Below, piece by piece: positions 48,152 through 64,000 of a stretch of DNA of 64,000 nt (position 1 is the stretch's first letter; each line of letters begins with the position of its first letter). A program made the translations under genes and the position numbers. The DNA comes from Prorocentrum cordatum. Its lineage: Eukaryota > Sar > Dinophyceae > Prorocentrales > Prorocentraceae. The notes beneath the pieces are model-generated. The model worked only from the letters and a program-made list of their open reading frames with translations. It ran no database searches and was not told the origin of the DNA. The stretch covers positions 474,946 to 538,945 of the forward strand of contig CAUYUJ010017893.1 of the NCBI GenBank assembly GCA_963575745.1, written 5' to 3'.

Positions 48152-48167
48152 CGCCGGAACGCGCTGC
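48152..48167 (+). repeat. LINE-2 target-site duplication, left
   Basis: CGCCGGAACGCGCTGC, identical to 54513-54528. Confidence 0.95.
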
Positions 48168-48174
48168 TTTTTTT
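48168..48174 (-). other. A7 tail of LINE-2
   Basis: Seven T on plus, hence A7 at the 3' end of the minus-strand element, immediately next to the target-site duplication. Short for a poly(A) tail. Confidence 0.85.
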
Positions 48175-48225
48175 CACTCATGGGCAGAAGGTGCGCCGCT
48201 CCGTGGTCGGCGAACCCGTAGGCCT

Positions 48226-51200
48226 TCAGCCTCTGGAGCTGGAGGCCCTGGCCTTCTGGTGTCTCTGGAATGCCTGGAAATGCTCAATGTCCTGAAACGG
48301 CTTCCCGTCCACAGGGTGAAGACCATTGAGCAACCTCTTTAGGGCCATATACCTGGAGCCACACTTTGGTGGCCCTTTGCACTCCACCAGAAGGCCTCTG
48401 AAGACACACGTGGCATGATTGCCACATTTCGCACAGAAAACCAGCAGGCCGTCTCCACAGGTGCCTGCCGAGAGAGCGTGTGAGGAGTGCACTTGACTGA
48501 GGCGCTCCCTAAACTCGCTCGAGAAAGGCTTGCAGGGTTCCTTGCATCGCCTCGAAACTGCTTCGTGAGAGTGGCTGACAGAAAAACAAGCCGAGCATCG
48601 CCACTCCAAGTGTTCAGCTCTTTGCCAGTCGTGCATTAGCCCGAGCTGAATCTTAACTTCTCCTGGCTTACGTATTCTATCATTGCGTGAATTGCTAGGC
48701 CAAGCCTCTCGCATCCTCGGAATGAACTTAAGAATGCGAGCGGCGTCATCCATTTGTTCCTCAAACAAAAATACCGCCGTCGGATCGAATGACGGATGCA
48801 TCTGGAGGGCCGACTTAGCAAACCTGTCACACTGCTTGCTAATATTAAAAGGCAGACTGTCCTCAGGTCGAACTTTATCTTCGCCCTGCTGCGCTTTAAC
48901 CTTCAACGCTGCTTTAAGGAAATGCCTGCTGTCACTCCCTAGTGCCGTGCGAAACGTGCCTGAATACATGCTCCTATAAGATGGCCTAGCAGCCAAAGGT
49001 TTGTGAAACCCGTCCAGCACAGCTTTGCAATCAACATGGGCTGTTGACTCCTGCGTTAGCATCTGTTGCAACACAAGGAACCCTAAGTGTTCGGCCGCCT
49101 GGGGGGTCTGCGGCAGAGGGAAAACAACGGGGCCAGCGATGACAACCTCAAGCTCCTCTTCCCTAGAAGACCCACAGACAGCCCAGGCGGCCCGATCTAG
49201 GCATCTGAGCCCCGATCGAGTGCAGGTGCGATCGGAGCCCGTGTGAGGTCCCAAAGAGCATCTGGCAACTGGCTCCGAAGAGTCTACATGTCTAATATTC
49301 ATGGAAAGCTCCCTAGCAGGTGGGGGGAAACCATCTGGGTCCGCCTCAGGGTGCGGGAGAAGTCCTAACGACAAAACTAGATCATGTTCAGCGTGTTCTA
49401 TACATGTAGCTAAAAGTTGCTGGTCGATTAGCTCATTTCTACGGGTCACGGCCTCCTCCGCCTGGCAGTGGTGCAACCTGTGCGCGAGGGTGTCGCCTGC
49501 TCGTCCGCACAGTGGGCAGGAGTCCTCTGGGTCATATCCAGCAGAAGCCGCCCTACTGGTGGCCCAGTAAGCCTGGCGCAATACGGCCCTCAGAAGGGCC
49601 GCCTGACCCCCAGACAGATTTGCTTTTCCAGAGGCGGTCAGAACTCTCCTAGCGACATCAAGACACACCCTGGGAACATCCTGGATCTGTCTGAGACTCT
49701 TGGCAGCTTTAATCTCCGAAGTCCTGGTGCAGGCATCCTGAAGCCAGTACTCCAGCAGCTTGGGCGACACATCAACGAGCGAGAACAGCTTGCCCTCGTG
49801 CGTTTTCAGCACGAAGGGCCCTTGAAATGTCCATCCGATCCTGTCGAGGGCGTGGGCCGCCGCTGTAACAGGTCCTTGAACTTGACGATCCTTGAATCCA
49901 GAGCGTGGTTCAATACTCTCCCAGAATGATTTTAATTGTCTGATCCCCAGGGTTCCCATGGGTCCAGCTGTGCCAATACCTGCGGCCCAAACCCCCTGAG
50001 CCCATCGCACCACTGGCGCCATGGCCCACTTGTCAGCTTTGGACTCCTACAGTGCGAAAGTAACTGGTCTGCTTTTGCCTCTACGCTGTGGTCCAGTGGC
50101 CGATAATTCCATAGCTCTGAGTTGCTCCAAACACTTGTTAGACGAACCACCAATACATGAGGCAAACGCTCAAGCAGGCAAGAGTCCACAAGTTACCAGT
50201 TTGAGTGCTCCCTGGCCCGCAACACGAACTAGCTGCCTCAAACGCGCAGCTCTCTGTTTGACTTTCTAAATCCTCTTGGCCCTCTTGGTGCCCCTGGAAA
50301 CGGTAACATATTCCCCAGCTCTGAAGTCGGACCCCAGGTTGGCGGCGATCTGCTGTTGTTTCCCTGCCCAAGGCCCTAGGGCCTTTAATATGTTCCTGCC
50401 GAGTGCTGCAGATGATGCAACTAGAGAACACTTTTCCACTGACAAGGTGGCGTCCAGCTCATCCTTGATCATTGCGGCAAGCTGCTTGGCGGCCTGCACA
50501 ATCCACTTAAGCACGCCCTGGCTCACGCCGAACGCCGTGAGCGAAGAGTCATCCACATAGAAATCGAAGTAGATGGCCGAGTTGAGGGAGGTAATTATGA
50601 GGAAACCTTGGAAGCAGTAGGTCCTGACATAACTATGGCGAACGAACGTCCCGCCACAATGCCTCTGAAAGCGTACAAAGCTTTAGACGCTGCTCTCTTG
50701 TATCCTACAAACCTCGCAGGGCCATGCGCAGCAAGATGGAACTGCATAAGCGTAGGACTAAAACCTAGCTCTAGGCCTCTGGCAAGCAACCTGGCTCTCG
50801 CAAATCGTCCGTGAAAGGGGGCCAGGTCCCAAAAGAGGCCCACTGAGGCCTCACCAGAGGCCTTAGATGCTTCACTTCTAACACTCTGCCTCCAAACAAC
50901 GTCAATAGGGGAGCTACCAGGCCCACAGCTGAACCACGGGTGGTCAAACTTGTACATCCAATCCCTGGCGCATGATAACCTGATCTTCCCAGAAACCTTG
51001 TAGAACACACTGAAGATCCCAATGGTGCGTGCGATAGCCCTTGGAGGCCTTAGGGAGCAGCGCCATGAGAACCCACTGAAGCTGAGGCGTGAGCGCTCCT
51101 AGGCACTCAGAAATCCCAAGAAGGTATATGAATACTTGTACTCCTCGCTCGGACAGGCAAGATAGGTGACGGCAGTGAAAGCCATCTAGACGGACTGCTG

Positions 51201-53060
51201 ACCTGGTGGAGTACGCCTTGCATATGTCCTGCACCGCGGTGACAGATGGCAAAGGCAATGCTGGCTGTGCAACGGGCGTGCATTGATGAGGCTCAGGTGT
51301 GGCCTCCCACAACTTGTCGTATTTGCGGTTATACTCATCAATCAAGGCCTGCACGCTGTTAGACCCCACCCCTTCAAACACAAATACTTCAGGTTCCCCT
51401 TGACCGGTTTTTCTTATATATATATAAACAAAAACCGACGTGCTGGGCCCGCTCCTTTGTTAAGCGCATTTGTGGCCCAATCTCTCAAACTTTCCCTGTG
51501 CTTGCTGTGGGGGTCTGAAATGACTGCCCTTGCATATTCTACCACCAAGCCAGATTCTTCCACAAGCCCGAAGCATAAGTCGTTACGGTCCCCTGGATCG
51601 AGCCCCGACTGGCAATGCAGATGCGAACGAACCCGTCGGGCAATGTCCTGAATAGTCCGAAAAATGTTGCTGGTACTAGCGCGCCCTAGCACATGATGTG
51701 GCTTGGCGGTAGCAAACTTGCGGCGGAGACTGTCTAGATCTCTCGCGCGCTCTGAAAAGATGGCCGGCTTGGCGAAGTCCACCAAGCTCAGCAGCTGGAT
51801 CAGTCGCCCGATGCGCGACGCAAGCCAGGAAGGGCCTTGCGCGACTGCTGCGAAACATTTGTGGACTGGATTCCTCTGGACCAGCGGGGCGGGACGCGGT
51901 TTCGGCAGTAATCCTCGAACTCCTGGCCTGGTGAGTTTCGATGTCGTCCGATCCGCCGCCTCCCTCTCCGCCTTCTGAGCCCAGTATCGGTGCAGAACTC
52001 CTAGATGTCTCCTCACTCCTGTTGGCTTGGTTTCCCCTGCTAGTCCTTGGAGCTGAAAGAAAATATCTTCGCAGCGCTCCAACAGCTCCGCCCAATCGAC
52101 GGACGAGACTCCAATCTCGTTCTCCCCTGGCAGCTCGCACGACATAGCTGGTACTGCGTCGAACTGTAAAATTCTCACTTGATGCATACTGGCTGGCAAA
52201 CCTATGCGCACAGGAAAGTGAGGCCTGCCGTGCCAGTCAAAGTCTGTTGAAACTGACGTGACCAGTTTAGCCAACTCTGACTCAACCACGAAATAATCTA
52301 TTACCTTTAATTTGCCTTGGCTTGACAATGGGGGCTCTGAAACCAAAACTTGGGCCCCGAGCGCCTCTGAAAACCCAGGGGAGGCCAGGGGCTCATGCAG
52401 CATGTTGAAATCTCCCCCCAAGAATGAACTGCGTGCTTGACGCTTTGCAGGGCGTGGCAACACGCTCCAGCATCTCCAAGTTGGTGGCAGAAAGGCCCTC
52501 TGAGACTTTCCCATAGACAGAGACACAAAGGGCGCCTGGGGCCCCTGGGAACTCTACCACACATGACAGCGCACGCCCCTGAAAGAGGATACCCTCGGGG
52601 GAAAGGAAGGTGGCTCAAGATTGTAGGCCCCCAGAGTGGCTCTGACGAAGATGGCCACTCCAGATGACACGCCCTCGTCCCCCAGCTCGTTGAGACTGGA
52701 ACGAGACGCACCAGAAGGGCCCGTGAAACTCGGCGCCCAGAATGGCTTCCAGCCATTTTTTAGCCCCCAAGCACTAGCGGTTCCCAGGGACCATTCGAAA
52801 AGCTTGATCTCCTGAGCAAGCAAAACTGCGACCGTGGAATTCTGCAACTCTCCCAGTCTCTGCTTCATGGTACCCCAGGACGAACCATTAAATTTTTCCA
52901 CCAGCATAGCTTCCCCACCATCACCAATTTCCCATTCAAGCTGGCTCTGGTCGAAATCAAAATCGCTGTCGGAAAATTCTGTCCCATAATGGCTGAAGTC
53001 ACTATGGTATGCTGTGCTACATGTGCCTGCAGCAGCGCCGGGCTCACAGCAACCTGCAGG
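48226..53060 (-). pseudogene. LINE-2 ORF2: endonuclease - reverse transcriptase - zinc knuckle - RNase H, disrupted
   Basis: Endonuclease: LLAQEIKL, GVSSGVAIFVRA, then a frame change at about 52555 to VEFPGAPGALCVSVYGKVSE and back at about 52430 to FLGGDFNM, with IDYFVVE. A stop follows at 51414. Reverse transcriptase: ALLPKASKGYR, WDLAPFHG (motif A), FRGIVAGRSFA (motif B) and FYVDD (motif C; YVDD at 50548-50559), spread over two frames. After YVDD the frame is broken by stops at 50266, 50170 and 50047. The final open stretch (50022-48226) holds a CPLCG..H...C knuckle (residues 169-186). It also holds an RNase H-like region in which the expected TDGS reads TGSD (262 region), with E311, D331 and CDRFAK (about 398-403), and a Cys-rich tail WRCSAC...CAKCG. 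Clearly a decayed retroelement polyprotein. Confidence 0.88.
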
Positions 53061-53076
53061 AACTGAAAAACATGTG

Positions 53077-54330
53077 CTACCCTGGCGACCTCCTGGCCGC
53101 CTCAGATGCATCATCGTCAGACAATTCCGCGGCTGCACCTCCAGCGCCACGAGGGGATCTTGACCCGCGATCTCGGTGTTGTCCCTCCTCATGTGCTGGT
53201 GACTGGCCCTTGCCCACTCCCGCCCCTCGCCCAGCACCAGGTCCAGGCGGGGCTCGTGGGCCTGCTGGCTGCGGCACGGCTGGCTGCTTGGCGACCGTGG
53301 GCCGCGGCGTCGGTGGATGGGATGCAGGCGTAGGCGGCTGTGACACCGCCGCCTTCGCGAGCTCCTTCTTCTTGGCCTCCCAGGCTGCACGTTGCTCACC
53401 TGGCAGAAGTGACTCCAGAACCTCGAGCTGCTGCTTCTCGAGGCTGGGGCCGTGCTCATCGTCGTCCACTCGCATCTCACGAATGGCCGCCTCCTCAAAC
53501 TTTTGTGCCAGCTGCTGTGCTGCGGTGAGCAATTGAGCGATCTCGGCGTCCTGAGGGGCCTTGGCGACCAACGACTCCAGCGAAAGCTTGAAATAATTGA
53601 AGTCGCCCAAGTGCGCACGAGCTGTTGTCGCCCATGTATGTGATTGCTGATCCTCCTCCGTCTTGAGCTGCTTCTCGGCCACATCGAGCCTCTGCTGTAG
53701 CTGCTTGCTGTCATCTCGCATGGTGTCCAATAGTGATTCCATCTGCCCAATGTACTCAGTATCCTCTTCCAGTTGCTTTCGCAGTTTATCCACTTTGTCC
53801 CGTGCTCGCTTGACTCGAACCGTCGCTCGATGCACTTGGTTGTGGTGGGGCAGGTGCACGGCGGCCTGCTCCTTAAGCTGTGCAAGCTTCTGTGTGGGTG
53901 CTGAAAGGCTCTGCTCGTGACCAGGGACGAGCTCGTCAGTAACTGAGCTGGCGTAGGCGATGTACTTCTCCAGAGACTCAATCTGGCTGTGTATCTTGTC
54001 TGCCGCCACTGTTGTGGCCGCTTGCTGTTGGTCATCATCCCCATCTCCTTTAGGCTGTAGCTATAGTTTGGCTGGAGGGGTGGCTCCCCCGTGCCGATTG
54101 TGGCAATATTTGAACAAATTTGTCTGCTTTGCTCCAGCTGCATATTGGGCTGACGACGCAACTCCAGTTCCTCCTTGATCATTCCCCTTGCCCTTCTTCG
54201 GAGGCCAACCGTTTGGCGGCTGAAAGTTGGCTCCGCAATACTTGCACTGGCGAATGCCAGAGTCGATAAATACCCAACTGCGCGGGCAACTCTTGCAGCA
54301 CACCCATTGCCTCGGCCTGCCGCTGACCAT
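53077..54330 (-). pseudogene. LINE-2 ORF1: zinc-ribbon and coiled-coil protein, one internal stop
   Basis: From an ATG at 54330, MVSGRPRQWVCCKSC opens a Cys-rich module CCKSC...CKYCG (zinc-ribbon-like). The frame has a TAG at 54061-54063 and resumes as LQPKGDGDDDQQQ. There follows a long charged helical region rich in heptad-like Leu (VKRARDKVDKLRKQLEEDTE, KQLQQRLDVAEKQLKTEEDQ), then a Pro-rich stretch and an acidic/basic end SDDDASEAARRSPG before the stop at 53077. About 417 codons. The layout parallels LINE-3 ORF1. It is probably a nucleic-acid-binding ORF1p analogue; function is inferred from position and layout. Open frames upstream rely on a GTG start at 54438. Confidence 0.8.
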
Positions 54331-54490
54331 GGCTGATGTGGGCGGGTTGACACGTGAATGGTGATCTAACTCTGTGGCTGCGGCTGCACCACTAGGGGAG
54401 GAGAATGACAGACGGCCCCCTGGCCAGGGCAAGGCCACCTGTGGGGGCCGTCAGAAAACTGGTCTCTGCATCACCTCGATAAATGTTTTA

Positions 54491-54512
54491 CTTGAGCCAA
54501 AATGGCTACGGA
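54491..54512 (-). other. relict dinoflagellate spliced leader
   Basis: Read on minus from 54512, all 22 bases match the known dinoflagellate SL, which starts with a variable base then CCGTAGCC, continues ATTTTGGC and ends TCAAG; here the variable base is T. It is followed by TAAAAC, so it lacks the GT donor of an SL RNA gene. It abuts the target-site duplication. Confidence 0.97.
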
Positions 54513-54528
54513 CGCCGGAACGCGCTGC
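54513..54528 (+). repeat. LINE-2 target-site duplication, right
   Basis: CGCCGGAACGCGCTGC, identical to 48152-48167 and directly next to the spliced leader. Rep-M sequence continues beyond it. Confidence 0.95.
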
Positions 54529-59855: not shown

Positions 59856-59955
59856 TCAGCCATTGCCCGACTCGAGGACTTCCAGGTGCCAGGAGATTTC
59901 TCGCGTCGCAGGGTGCGGCAAGCTTGGCAGTGGCACCGCCGCCCCGAGCACCCAG

Positions 59956-60924
59956 ATGCCCCCCAAGTCTGGCGATGCGTGGACCTGCTCAGTGTGCCAC
60001 ACGGACGATTGTTGGGGAAGGACGAAAGTATGTTACTGGTGCGAGAAGCCTCGGCAGACACCCAAGAGAGACGGGCAGGGCGACGGACCGAAGGACACAC
60101 ACCAGGATGCCGATGGCGACGCCTCCAACGAAACCACGTCGGGCATCGCGAAGAAGCTGGAGATCTACAGGGCCCGCCTCAAGGATCTCGAACAGCTCGC
60201 GCAGGAGCCAGGCATGGAGTTCGCATCGGATGCCACGTCGAAGTTGCAGGAACAGATCGACGGGCTGCTGGCACAAAAGGAAGCAACGCTACCAGCATGC
60301 TACGCGGAAGTGGCAGTGCGCCGCCGCCTCCGTGGAGCAGAGAAATCACAGTCGAAGGCTGATGCCCATGTGGCAAAGCTCAAGCAGCATCTCGAGGACA
60401 TCCAGACTCAGCTGCGCACCGCGGAGAACAAGGCCGAGCAGGCGAATAAGAAGGTCGAGTCCCTCCGTGCCAAGGAGAAGGCGCTCGCCAGGCCCCCCAC
60501 GTCCAAGGGCTGGGACTCGGTCTGCGCGCGCCTGGAGCTCGCCAAGAAGTCCCTGGGGGCCGACGGCGAGGAGCAGGATGCGGAGGTCATCAAGCAGTTG
60601 GAAGCGGCCCTCGCACTCGCGGCGAAGAAGAAGGCGAGCGCTGCGGAGAAGATGGCCGTGCCGATGGATGAAGACGGGGACAGCCTCAGCGGCGACGGAC
60701 CACGCCACAAGAGGCGCGCTTGCATCGGCACCGAGGAGCAGAGCGAGGACGTCCTCAAGCACAAGGCTAAAGCACGCCCCCAGGAGATCACGACAGCCCT
60801 CAAGCAGGCCGGTGTCAAGGATGAGGAGATCCAGAAGCATGGGCCGATGTTGCATGCGATTATTGCTGACATGGCTGAAAGTTTCCACTTTGCAATGCGG
60901 ATATCGAGCCTGTCGCGTTCCTAG
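59956..60924 (+). CDS. LINE-3 ORF1: zinc-finger and coiled-coil protein
   Basis: The start chosen is ATG 59956-59958 (MPPKSGDAWTCSVC); the frame is open further upstream only because of a Pro-coding repeat. 322 residues. WTCSVCHTDDCWGRTKVC followed by YWCEKPR is a compact four- to five-Cys zinc module. Residues about 50-240 are strongly charged and helical (KLEIYRARLKDLEQLAQEPG, AHVAKLKQHLEDIQTQLRTA) as in coiled coils. The end is acidic, then basic (MDEDGDSLSGDGPRHKRRAC). The layout matches LINE-2 ORF1, which supports a role as a nucleic-acid-binding ORF1p. Intact within itself; the stop at 60922-60924 follows SSLSRS. Confidence 0.82.
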   Translation: MPPKSGDAWTCSVCHTDDCWGRTKVCYWCEKPRQTPKRDGQGDGPKDTHQDADGDASNETTSGIAKKLEIYRARLKDLEQLAQEPGMEFASDATSKLQEQIDGLLAQKEATLPACYAEVAVRRRLRGAEKSQSKADAHVAKLKQHLEDIQTQLRTAENKAEQANKKVESLRAKEKALARPPTSKGWDSVCARLELAKKSLGADGEEQDAEVIKQLEAALALAAKKKASAAEKMAVPMDEDGDSLSGDGPRHKRRACIGTEEQSEDVLKHKAKARPQEITTALKQAGVKDEEIQKHGPMLHAIIADMAESFHFAMRISSLSRS

Positions 60925-60954
60925 TGACCCACCAGAGCAGTGTGCAAGTACCAG

Positions 60955-63900
60955 GGCAGAGAAGCAGGTGTTCATCACATGCAATGCGAACACCGCGAAC
61001 CAGTTCGAGAAGGTTTTGCTCCAACTGCGCTACCAGGTCGAGGCCCCAGTCGTCCTAGGCCAGGAGTTACAGTTGGCGCCAAAACAAGTAGAGCTGCTGT
61101 CGGCCAGGCTCATCAAATATGGCTGGAAGGCGGCAGTGGTGCCTAGTGCGCCTACCAAGCAAGGCATGTGGGCGGGGGTGATGATCGCGGTGCCAAGCCG
61201 CATGGGGATTACCTACCTGCCCGAGCTGATGAAGTGGGACGCCTCGCCTACGGAGTCACCAGGGAGACTCTGTGGGCTACGTCAAGACATGCCGCAAGCA
61301 CGGCATCGCGGTGGGCTCTGTGTACCTCTGAGTGGCAGAAGGGCCCACGAACCGCAACCTCACAATACTCAGCCGCTTCGGGGCGCTCATGGCCGTGGCA
61401 GGCCAACCGCGGGTGCTCGGCGGCGACTTCAACATGGAGCCTCAGGAGCTGATGAGCACGGGTATCATCGCCAAGCTGAAGGGGCACCTGGTCTACGACA
61501 GGAGTGAAGGCACGTGCAGGGGAAGTACGGGCAACTACTCGGTCAGGGACTACTTTATCGTTTCGGAGAGTTTGCTGGAGAATGGGCTTCGAGCGGAAGT
61601 CATGACGTCTTTTGCGGCCAAGCCCCATAGGCCCATCATGATGAAGATAGGACGCCGATCGCCTGTGCCACAGGCCCTCCAGCTCATACAGAAGGCACCG
61701 TGGCCTTTGACTGTGCCAACAGGGTGCCCTACCCCACCAGTGCAGTGGCCACGTCCTCTCCGTAGGGAGCGTGTCGACCACGAGACTCTGAACGCCTTCT
61801 GGCACGATCTCATGCACGCCTAACGAGATGCACTGGAACAGATATCACTGCTTTGACGGCGACGAGCTGCTGGCCCACAGTGGGCATGGCGAAAAGGCTG
61901 TCTACAAGATGCGAGAGCTAGCGCCCCCGACGGTCAGGGACAAGGGAGCCCCGACGGCGCGAACTATGGCAACATAATGGGTGGCGAATATCCTGCGGGA
62001 CCTGGCCCACAGCCTCAGCAGCGACTCGCGCGAGGCAGGCGGCCAGGAGGTGAGCCGCATCAAGTCCATCAAGGAGGCGATGACCCAGCAGTGGGCCCTC
62101 GCACAAGTCCACCAGTATGGAAAGGAGCTGAAGACCCCGTGGCCCCACGTCCTCGAGACCATCCTGGAATGCATGGAAGAGCAGCAGGAGCTGACTGAGA
62201 GCCTGGAGTACCTCAATTACTGGCAGCAGGCCGCGGCGAGAGAGGCTGAAGAGGCGAGGCGGGGCGAGGTCAAGGAGGCCACCAAGGCCTGGCGGGCATG
62301 GGTTCGCAACCACAGCGAGAAGTCCGCGGGGGCCCTGCACAAGTGGACCAAGCCGAAGGTCCCGTGGGAGCCCTTGGTACCACAGAATACGAGGGAGGCA
62401 AAACCCAGACTCGGTGAGCCTCCACAGACTGTCACAGCGGGTGAGACGCCCCAGCACGTCGCCATGATGGACCCGCAGACAGCCGCCAACACAGCGTTGC
62501 AGGAGTGGGAGAGCATATGGCGGTACCAGGTGGACTGGGCTGCGCCATGGTTTGAGCCGCCTGCGGTAGACGAGCCCATGCTACCGCCTATCCTCGGCCA
62601 CCACGTGCTGCACGCCTGCAAGGCTTTCTCCCCCAAGACGGGCCTGGGCGAGTCCAACGTCCACCCCCAGGCTGTGGGCCCAAGGGCCAGCTGTTGGCCT
62701 AGCAGGCCTGGCGAGTATCCTGAACTGCATCGAGCGCGGATCCGACTGGCCCGTCTCGCAGCAGTGCATCATTTTTTGGCTTCAGCCCAAGCCCAAGGGC
62801 GGCATGGGGAATTTGGGGCTTCTACCAGAGCTCGTGCGAGTATGGGAGAAGTCAGGCGCCCGAGATCCAGAAATGGCAAAGCCGAAACCCACGAGCATAC
62901 GATTGGGCTGTGAAGGGCAGGTCCGCTGAACGAGCGGCCTGGATGCAGGGCCTCCTAGCTGAAGGGTCGTTGGCGCAGGGCGAAGCCATCGCCACCGCAT
63001 ATTACGACTTGAGGAAGTGCTACGAGACCGTGCTGCATTCTCTTATTTGGAGCGGTGGCCTGCGCTGGGGATTCCCAAGGCCCTTGCTGCGTGTCATATT
63101 GAGAGTATTTTCTTTGATGAGGAGAGTGGTGCTGAATGGGTGTTACACCGAGGGCAACTTCTGGGCGCAAGGGGTCGTGGCAGGACCCGTGTTCGGCCCA
63201 TTGTGTTTGTCCCTCGTGCTCATCGGCGCTATCGACGACCTCTATATAGCGAACCCGAGGGCCGACATGTGCCTCTACTTCGACGACCTCGCGGCGTCGA
63301 CCAGGGGCGACGTGACCGCCGTGGCAGCGCTCCACATGAAGCTGACTGACGAGATCGTCTTCGCTCTCGAGCAGGTGCTCAAGCTGCAGGTCTCGAGAGG
63401 CAGGGGCGGCAAGACCGTAGTCGCAGTCTCGCATGGCAAGGTGGAGCGGCAGCTAGGCAGCCAGAACACGCAGATGGGCATTCAGGTGGTGCGTGAAGCC
63501 GCGCACTTGGGCGTGACCCAATCAGCTGCGCGGCGACGACGTGCCGGAGCCCAGTCCAAGAGGATCATCAAGGCCAAGGCCAGGAGCTGGAAGATCCAGC
63601 GGGTCAAGGCCGCAGGAAGTGCAGCGCAGAAGGTGGTCAGGCTCGGGATCGCGCCGTCGGAGCTCTACGGCGCGCGCGTGCAGGGCGCCACGGGCGCGCT
63701 GATCACCACGCTCAGGCAGACTGTGGCAGCGGCCTTCCCTGGACGCAACAAGGGAAGGTCGGCCGCGCTGGTGCTGCTGGCGGAGGGCGCGGACCCAGCC
63801 GTGGTAGCCAACGCGGGGCCCGTCGTGGAGTGGGCCAGGGCGTGGCAGGAGGCGACGGACATGGCCACGCGGGACCTCCTGGTGGCGAGCTGGCGCACGT

Positions 63901-64000
63901 GGGTCATGCGACTCCACGGGCATCCGAGGCCGTGGGGCCTAGTGAGAGGACCAGCAGGCGCTTTCATTGCAACTGTAATTCGCCTCGGTTGGAGCACCCA
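60955..64000 (+). pseudogene. LINE-3 ORF2: endonuclease and reverse transcriptase, frameshifted, runs off the window
   Basis: Endonuclease part 1 (frame of 60955-61258): EKQVFITCNANTANQFEKVL, VVLGQELQL and LIKYGWKAAVV. The frame changes at about 61260 to GDSVGYVKTCRKHGIAVGSV, is interrupted by TGA at 61329-61331, and continues EGPTNRNLTILSRF, VLGGDFNMEP and VRDYFIVSE to 61823. The linker is in a third frame (61981-62850): KEAMTQQWALAQVHQYGKEL and HVLHACKAFSPKTGLGES. Reverse transcriptase in the last frame: NPRAYDWAVKGRSAERAAW, YYDLRKCYETV (motif A), QGVVAGPVFGPL (motif B), YFDD (motif C, 63276-63287) and AHLGV. It stays open to the window end. Three or more frameshifts and at least one stop: decayed, or poorly assembled. 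Confidence 0.85.

Follow-up and report, generated by a model that had tools for sequence, protein, structure and literature searches.

Dinoflagellate spliced leaders at the 5′ ends of LINE insertions in Prorocentrum cordatum: DNA evidence for probable insertion from trans-spliced RNA

A LINE headed by a spliced leader

The subject of this analysis is a 64,000-nucleotide stretch of the dinoflagellate Prorocentrum cordatum genome (assembly GCA_963575745.1, contig CAUYUJ010017893.1, positions 474,946 to 538,945; hereafter the window), in which a long interspersed nuclear element (LINE) is preceded by a complete dinoflagellate spliced leader (DinoSL, or simply SL). Read along the minus strand, the insertion consists of a 16-bp target duplication, the 22-nt DinoSL, a LINE of about 6.3 kb, a tract of seven A residues (A7) and the second copy of the target duplication. 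The DinoSL, TCCGTAGCCATTTTGGCTCAAG, occupies 54512..54491 of that strand, matches at 22/22 positions and adjoins the duplication at its first base. The duplication, GCAGCGCGTTCCGGCG, is identical at 16/16 positions in its two copies, one at 54528..54513, directly before the SL, and the other at 48167..48152, directly after A7. Directly 3′ of the SL there is no GT donor, the next two bases being TA. A first-pass annotation of this DNA had described a complete SL at the 5′ edge of a LINE between perfect duplications, and in each of these particulars it was exact. The features of the insertion are as follows.

54513..54528, minus strand: target duplication, 5′ copy; exact, with two copies only in the window
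54491..54512, minus strand: complete 22-nt dinoflagellate spliced leader; first base adjoins the duplication, no GT donor
54459..54490, minus strand: LINE 5′-terminal sequence, beginning TAAAACATTTATCGAGG, common to other SL-headed copies of the genome
53077..54330, minus strand: region of open reading frame 1 (ORF1), with a Cys-rich N terminus followed by coiled-coil-like and Pro-rich stretches; labelled by eye
54061-54063, minus strand: in-frame TAG in the ORF1 region
51414..53105, minus strand: endonuclease region and linker, fragmented, the frame changing at about 52554; the endonuclease pieces match the SL-headed LINE L047
50266..51459, minus strand: reverse transcriptase region with FYVDDSS motif; split into no fewer than three frame pieces (50944-51459, 50595-51098 and 50266-50682)
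48226..50046, minus strand: C-terminal open frame of 606 amino acids, with zinc knuckle, RNase H-like stretch and Cys-rich tail
48168..48174, minus strand: A7 tract, the 3′ terminus of the element
48152..48167, minus strand: target duplication, 3′ copy; exact

No other match to the 21-nt SL was found in the 64-kb window at up to three mismatches, and 0/100 dinucleotide shuffles had any. For GCAGCGCGTTCCGGCG, present exactly only as the two copies above, shuffled sequences averaged 0.09 matches at up to two mismatches, and had two copies in 0/100 cases. Between 48000 and 54700 no terminal direct repeats other than the 16-bp duplication were found (no long terminal repeats, LTRs), and at gathering thresholds Rfam had no match anywhere in the window. 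The SL is not that of an SL RNA gene, because TA rather than GT follows it. Insertion of the element inside such a gene, after the manner of SLACS and CZAR, was also rejected: the SL lies inside the duplication, TA follows it and it is the sole SL match in the window.

As judged by sequence similarity, the body of the insertion is a LINE with endonuclease and reverse transcriptase (RT) domains in order. Its C-terminal frame has a LINE-like homologue, P0001 (E-value 7e-28), its RT pieces match the LINEs L036, L039, L047 and L048 of the same genome, and endonuclease, RT and C-terminal pieces all find matches among other LINEs of that genome. Pfam, applied to the broken pieces, called neither RT nor endonuclease and returned only zf-RVT, at an E-value of 0.0019, which is below cut-off. 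An RNase H-like stretch in the C-terminal frame is predicted from the alignment to P0001 and by eye. The insertion bears the SL directly at its 5′ edge (22/22, abutting the duplication), as an SL-bearing retrocopy would, and has no host protein-coding parent, since its body is a LINE.

No DNA copy of this element, LINE A, was found in the rest of the window. Its protein sequence does, however, resemble that of a second LINE, located at about 61.3-63.2 kb of the plus strand, and a fragment near 43 kb. The second LINE, a different one, occupies approximately 59900-64000 of the plus strand and continues past the end of the window.

Spliced leaders and LINEs across the genome

The whole assembly, 4,128,499,153 bases in 21,875 contigs, was searched with the 21-nt SL at up to two mismatches, the reversed pattern serving as control. 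This located 33,832 SL places, against 9 for the control. For 20 exact-SL places we took approximately 9.4 kb downstream and 0.4-0.5 kb upstream; these were the first 22 exact places listed, minus C1:639, which is near a contig start, and C1:893877, which falls inside the stretch taken for C1:888022. RT and endonuclease profiles were seeded from L035, L048 and L040, where Pfam domains had been found, and iterated on the same loci. A LINE RT on the same strand was detected downstream of 13/20 places, the match beginning 2.7-3.8 kb from the SL, and an endonuclease also at 8/20, while the opposite strand of the same places yielded neither (RT 0/20, endonuclease 0/20). Other SL-headed LINEs, which the first-pass annotation had suggested looking for, are present at 13 of the 20 exact sites. 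Its remark that full-length 5′ ends are unusual for LINEs does not apply here, since they are common in this genome. If the proportion of 13/20 held throughout, the genome would contain some 22,000 SL-headed LINEs, a figure scaled up from a small number of exact sites.

The LINEs behind these SLs are diverse. Their 13 RTs represent at least 12 families, falling into two divergent groups without a mutual blastp match at 1e-3, and RT identity between families is 22-39%. The sole pair from the same family, L035 and L046, is 91% identical over 5.7 kb, both members starting at the SL. In L035 an ATG directly after the SL begins an open frame of 1864 amino acids with endonuclease and RT domains recognised by Pfam; in L048 the ATG is similarly placed and the open frame runs to 2781 amino acids, including RNase H, although its RT and endonuclease fall short of the Pfam cut-offs. 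In L040 the open frame, of 1439 amino acids, contains both domains (Pfam). Three homologues of an SL-headed LINE are labelled Prorocentrum cordatum, at 26-28% identity. An ATG directly after the SL was seen at 7/30 SL places (L002, L006, L008, L018, L020, L028 and L030), where the leader makes up the entire 5′ untranslated region. In L036 and L047 the first 100 nt or so after the SL are 78% alike over 108 nt, yet the RTs are only 29% identical; such shared 5′ termini may reflect exchange of 5′ ends or constraint.

A second insertion can be read as fully as that of the window. In L036 the sequence GGTCCCTGCCGACC stands before the SL and again after a tract of eight A residues, 6.6 kb on, in a target that is not a repeat, an insertion of the kind that the first-pass annotation had proposed searching for. 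L047 has a 13/13 duplication, but in a GA-rich target. Outside repeats, a perfect target duplication abuts the SL in two cases, the window and L036. Candidate duplications within TCC or GGA repeats were set aside as uninformative.

The target sites themselves show a strong bias towards microsatellites. Among the 30-mers upstream of 30 SL places (L002-L031), 15 are at least 90% pyrimidine, seven are at most 10% pyrimidine and eight are neither, with a (TCC)n-like tract before 15/30 insertions and a (GGA)n-like tract before 7/30. Pyrimidine tracts would suit as splice acceptors; the remaining sites show no strict rule. In L037, some 5.8-5.9 kb after its SL (G000:C1:893877), a further SL, itself with a degenerate relic, comes after the 3′ TCC tract, so that SL insertions can stack in one repeat. 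Neither L035 nor L046 has the A tail seen in the window copy and L036; both terminate in CAAGGTTACGTTCGC, and TCC repeats come next. Finally, L031 shows a 16-base match at the SL edge that recurs about 1.3 kb downstream after CCAAGCCAAAAAAC, and this short SL insertion may be a host retrocopy.

Probable renewal of the leader and competing explanations

Copies of the window's own junction were sought with the SL plus 17 nt of the element at up to three mismatches. The junction occurs at 106 places in the genome, against 0 for the control. Divergence was computed against the majority for 100 of these 106 places, the window's own included. Mismatches affect 12 of 2100 SL positions (0.57%) and 150 of 1700 positions of the adjoining element (8.8%), the mismatch ceiling of the query limiting the divergence that can be seen. 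The same 100 copies comprise 88 intact SLs and 39 different element 17-mers. In the ten junction copies whose 5′ flanks were read, the SL is always followed directly by TAAAMCATTT, and eight lie in TCC and two in GGA repeats. One kilobase was read at about +5.9 to +6.9 kb in these ten, and four contain LINE C-terminal homology, with bodies 90-95% identical. Some copies (L058, L062, L064, L068, L073, L074, L075 and L077) have C instead of the usual T before CCGTAG; this base may belong to the target or arise from an effect at the capped end.

A sister family allowed the 5′ end to be searched independently of the leader, with a 33-nt query containing no SL letters. It returned 49 copies (control 0), of which 21 have a single SL with at most one mismatch directly upstream. 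From the remaining 28, six were read at the flank, and each carries a complete or one-mismatch SL followed by a 15-nt relic of another, the relic itself having one mismatch in one case. Among the tandem matches listed, 16 of the 28 show the SL tail and the 15-nt relic. This relic, CCATTTTGGCTCAAG, starts just past TCCGTAG. The tandem pattern of SL and relic has 148 matches in the genome, against 0 for the control; the first-pass annotation had named tandem relics as something to look for. For 100 of the 148 matches the places were listed, and 78 rows with letters were used for haplotypes. Among these tandem matches listed, seven of the 13 element haplotypes that recur in single-SL copies are also seen in tandem copies, the commonest haplotype common to both states being counted 34 and 24 times. 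Among the 78 tandem rows used, that of the window (2 copies) is absent.

Relics are also visible in 4/13 of the sampled SL-headed LINEs (L036 11/15, L038 15/15, L043 15/15 and L047 12/15) and, at 11/15 or better, at 8/30 SL places overall. Outer SLs are intact or close to it, and inner relics are cut at an AG or degenerate.

We consider it highly probable, at roughly 0.88, that the window holds a LINE inserted from an SL trans-spliced RNA, that many LINE families move likewise and that inserted copies are spliced again. The DNA contains SLs at the 5′ ends of LINEs of at least 12 families, target duplications at the SL edge where these can be read and traces of earlier leaders within families; from these we infer trans-splicing of the LINE RNA, the choice of AG and copying by the LINE's own enzyme. 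The LINE RNA would be trans-spliced to the dinoflagellate SL before reverse transcription, the RT would copy through to the first nucleotide of the leader, and the cDNA would be inserted with a 16-bp target duplication. Transcribed anew, the inserted copy would then be spliced at either of two AGs that its genomic leader contains. Use of the AG at the 3′ end would replace the old leader without trace, giving single-SL copies; use of the AG after TCCGTAG would leave the old leader as the 15-nt relic. The first-pass annotation had proposed that a trans-spliced, full-length product was reinserted with an SL open to further splicing, and the 13/20 sites, the 106 junctions and the tandem relics lend this support. 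Its idea that the SL travels as a fixed 5′ end survives in part: the SL is a recurring 5′ end, but one that appears to be renewed at least in part and not merely inherited. It had missed the broken frames, the commonness of the arrangement genome-wide and the tandem relics in related copies.

Several observations weigh against this reading. All of its support comes from DNA. The frames of the window copy are interrupted several times, by in-frame stops and several frame changes, some of the latter at short runs (TA, G) where they could be assembly indels or real; as assembled, the copy therefore lacks the intact frame of a LINE, sequence error being possible, and the earlier description of it as autonomous does not hold. 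No SL-like 15-mer (up to three substitutions) is recognisable near the 5′ side of the second window LINE, and no LINE RT was found at 7/20 of the exact-SL places. A LINE match is absent from six of the ten junction copies within the one kilobase read, and none of the ten could be aligned by DNA to the window element at that guessed distance. Twelve of the 49 sister-family 5′ ends have neither a single SL nor a place among the tandem matches listed. The window copy has no relic (6/15 at the relic position), and L047 has as its inner relic a complete but degenerate 22-nt SL, unlike the 15-nt form. Most SL sites lie inside TCC or GGA repeats, where target duplications are unreadable. The low divergence of the SL could instead mean recent insertion or selection.

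A different explanation of that low divergence would have the SL captured once and now serving as a fixed 5′ end or promoter of the element, copied from the template and selected without renewal by trans-splicing. Such a history would account for the junction of SL and TAAAMCATTT fixed across many copies, and for 5′ termini common to LINEs with far-diverged bodies or RTs, such as L036 and L047. We nevertheless regard it as improbable, given that the SL heads two LINE groups without mutual RT similarity at 1e-3, that only the inner leaders, as relics, are AG-cut or degenerate, the outer ones being intact or almost intact, and that identical element haplotypes occur both with one SL and with SL plus relic. 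The promoter reading, which the first-pass annotation had itself named as a possible refutation, was rejected as the principal one because LINEs with unrelated RTs carry the SL and because inner relics are cut or diverged.

Slightly less probable again is that a host RT or another LINE copied an SL-bearing LINE mRNA in trans, the LINE being a passenger and the SL having no role in its life cycle. The broken state of the window copy as assembled and the existence of SL-tagged host retrogenes are compatible with this, and reinsertion by the element's own machinery, as originally proposed, is putative, since the element may have been mobilised in trans. LINEs at 13/20 SL sites, three of them with long open frames, and tandem relics that imply repeated rounds within one LINE family argue the other way. 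An assembly artefact, in which genomic DNA was wrongly fused to SL-primed or transcript-derived sequence, is scarcely credible even though the published P. cordatum assembly is described as scaffolded with RNA-seq transcripts (PMC10666404), for the element is flanked on either side by a perfect 16-bp duplication, a second case, L036, has one of its own, and a single false join at 54512, which the first-pass annotation had allowed for, cannot explain like junctions at 106 places.

Beyond insertion from trans-spliced RNA, we tentatively suggest, at somewhat under even odds, that dinoflagellate LINEs use the host SL as a self-renewing, portable 5′ terminus that replaces both a promoter and a fixed 5′ end belonging to the element. 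The inserted SL would both record the last round and act as the next trans-splice acceptor; (TCC)n could supply the polypyrimidine tract, so that splicing might release a copy within a host transcription unit as a LINE mRNA that is full-length and leader-capped. If this is true, many DNA-encoded SLs in this genome mark LINEs rather than host retrogenes, and counts of retrogenes by SL tag may need correcting.

Relation to known systems and significance

Dinoflagellate retrogenes tagged with DinoSL, the products of mRNA recycling, were reportedly described by Slamovits and Keeling in 2008. SL-tagged dinoflagellate retrogenes bearing serial relics are known from several accounts (PMC6050394, PMC12014239, PMC3229502), and the AG of TCCGTAG is named in one of them as a site of re-splicing (PMC3229502). 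The present insertions are alike in that a reinserted cDNA has a DNA-encoded SL at its 5′ edge and in having serial relics that begin after that AG. They differ in that the retrogenes are host genes, for which retrotransposons were merely suggested as the source of RT, whereas here LINEs themselves carry the SL and its relics. With non-LTR retrotransposons, which encode endonuclease, RT and in some cases RNase H, they share domain order, target duplications and an A-rich 3′ end (window, L036); unlike typical members, which have an element-specific start, they have the host SL as 5′ end.

LINEs have been associated with spliced leaders in other ways. Elements of the SLACS and CZAR type insert into SL RNA genes, and so resemble the present case in that a LINE adjoins SL sequence. 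There, however, the SL gene is the target, while here the SL is inside the duplication, lacks a GT donor and stands in unrelated target DNA. The trypanosomatid elements L1Tc and ingi, with Pr77, are LINEs with a common 5′ sequence in organisms that practise SL trans-splicing, but Pr77 is reported as an internal promoter with unspliced transcripts (PMC8190864), whereas the common 5′ sequence here is the SL. Endogenous dinoRNAV elements likewise have SLs near inserted RNA-derived sequence in dinoflagellate genomes: dinoSL was reported within 500 bp of 6/26 RNA-dependent RNA polymerase (RdRp) ORFs, and LINE involvement was proposed (PMC10235124). These are viral sequences with a nearby SL and not LINE 5′ ends.

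A scan of IMG/VR for the SL brought up one AT-rich contig without a LINE, IMGVR_UViG_3300045993_001077 (L001). It has two exact 21-nt DinoSLs on the minus strand (2746-2766 and 2893-2913), 147 bases apart, located in spacers before a frame of 267 amino acids. The contig may be giant-virus-like, its leaders taken from a host or mimicking one, or it may be a chimera. As to cellular genomes, full SL sequences are reported to number 496 in S. tridacnidorum and 244 in S. natans (PMC8045281), beside which P. cordatum may be extreme.

No description of SL-headed or re-spliced LINEs was found in the literature searched, which misses most subscription journals. DinoSL relics are the usual tag of retrogenes in dinoflagellates, and the source of the RT has so far been left as probably retrotransposons. 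Here, retrotransposons themselves bear the SL tag, in many families, with successive rounds recorded in the DNA. SL-headed LINEs are thus a candidate engine for mRNA recycling, and SL-based retrogene counts may include them. The decay of the relics offers a record of successive rounds, and a LINE life cycle dependent on trans-splicing becomes testable with SL-primed cDNA data.

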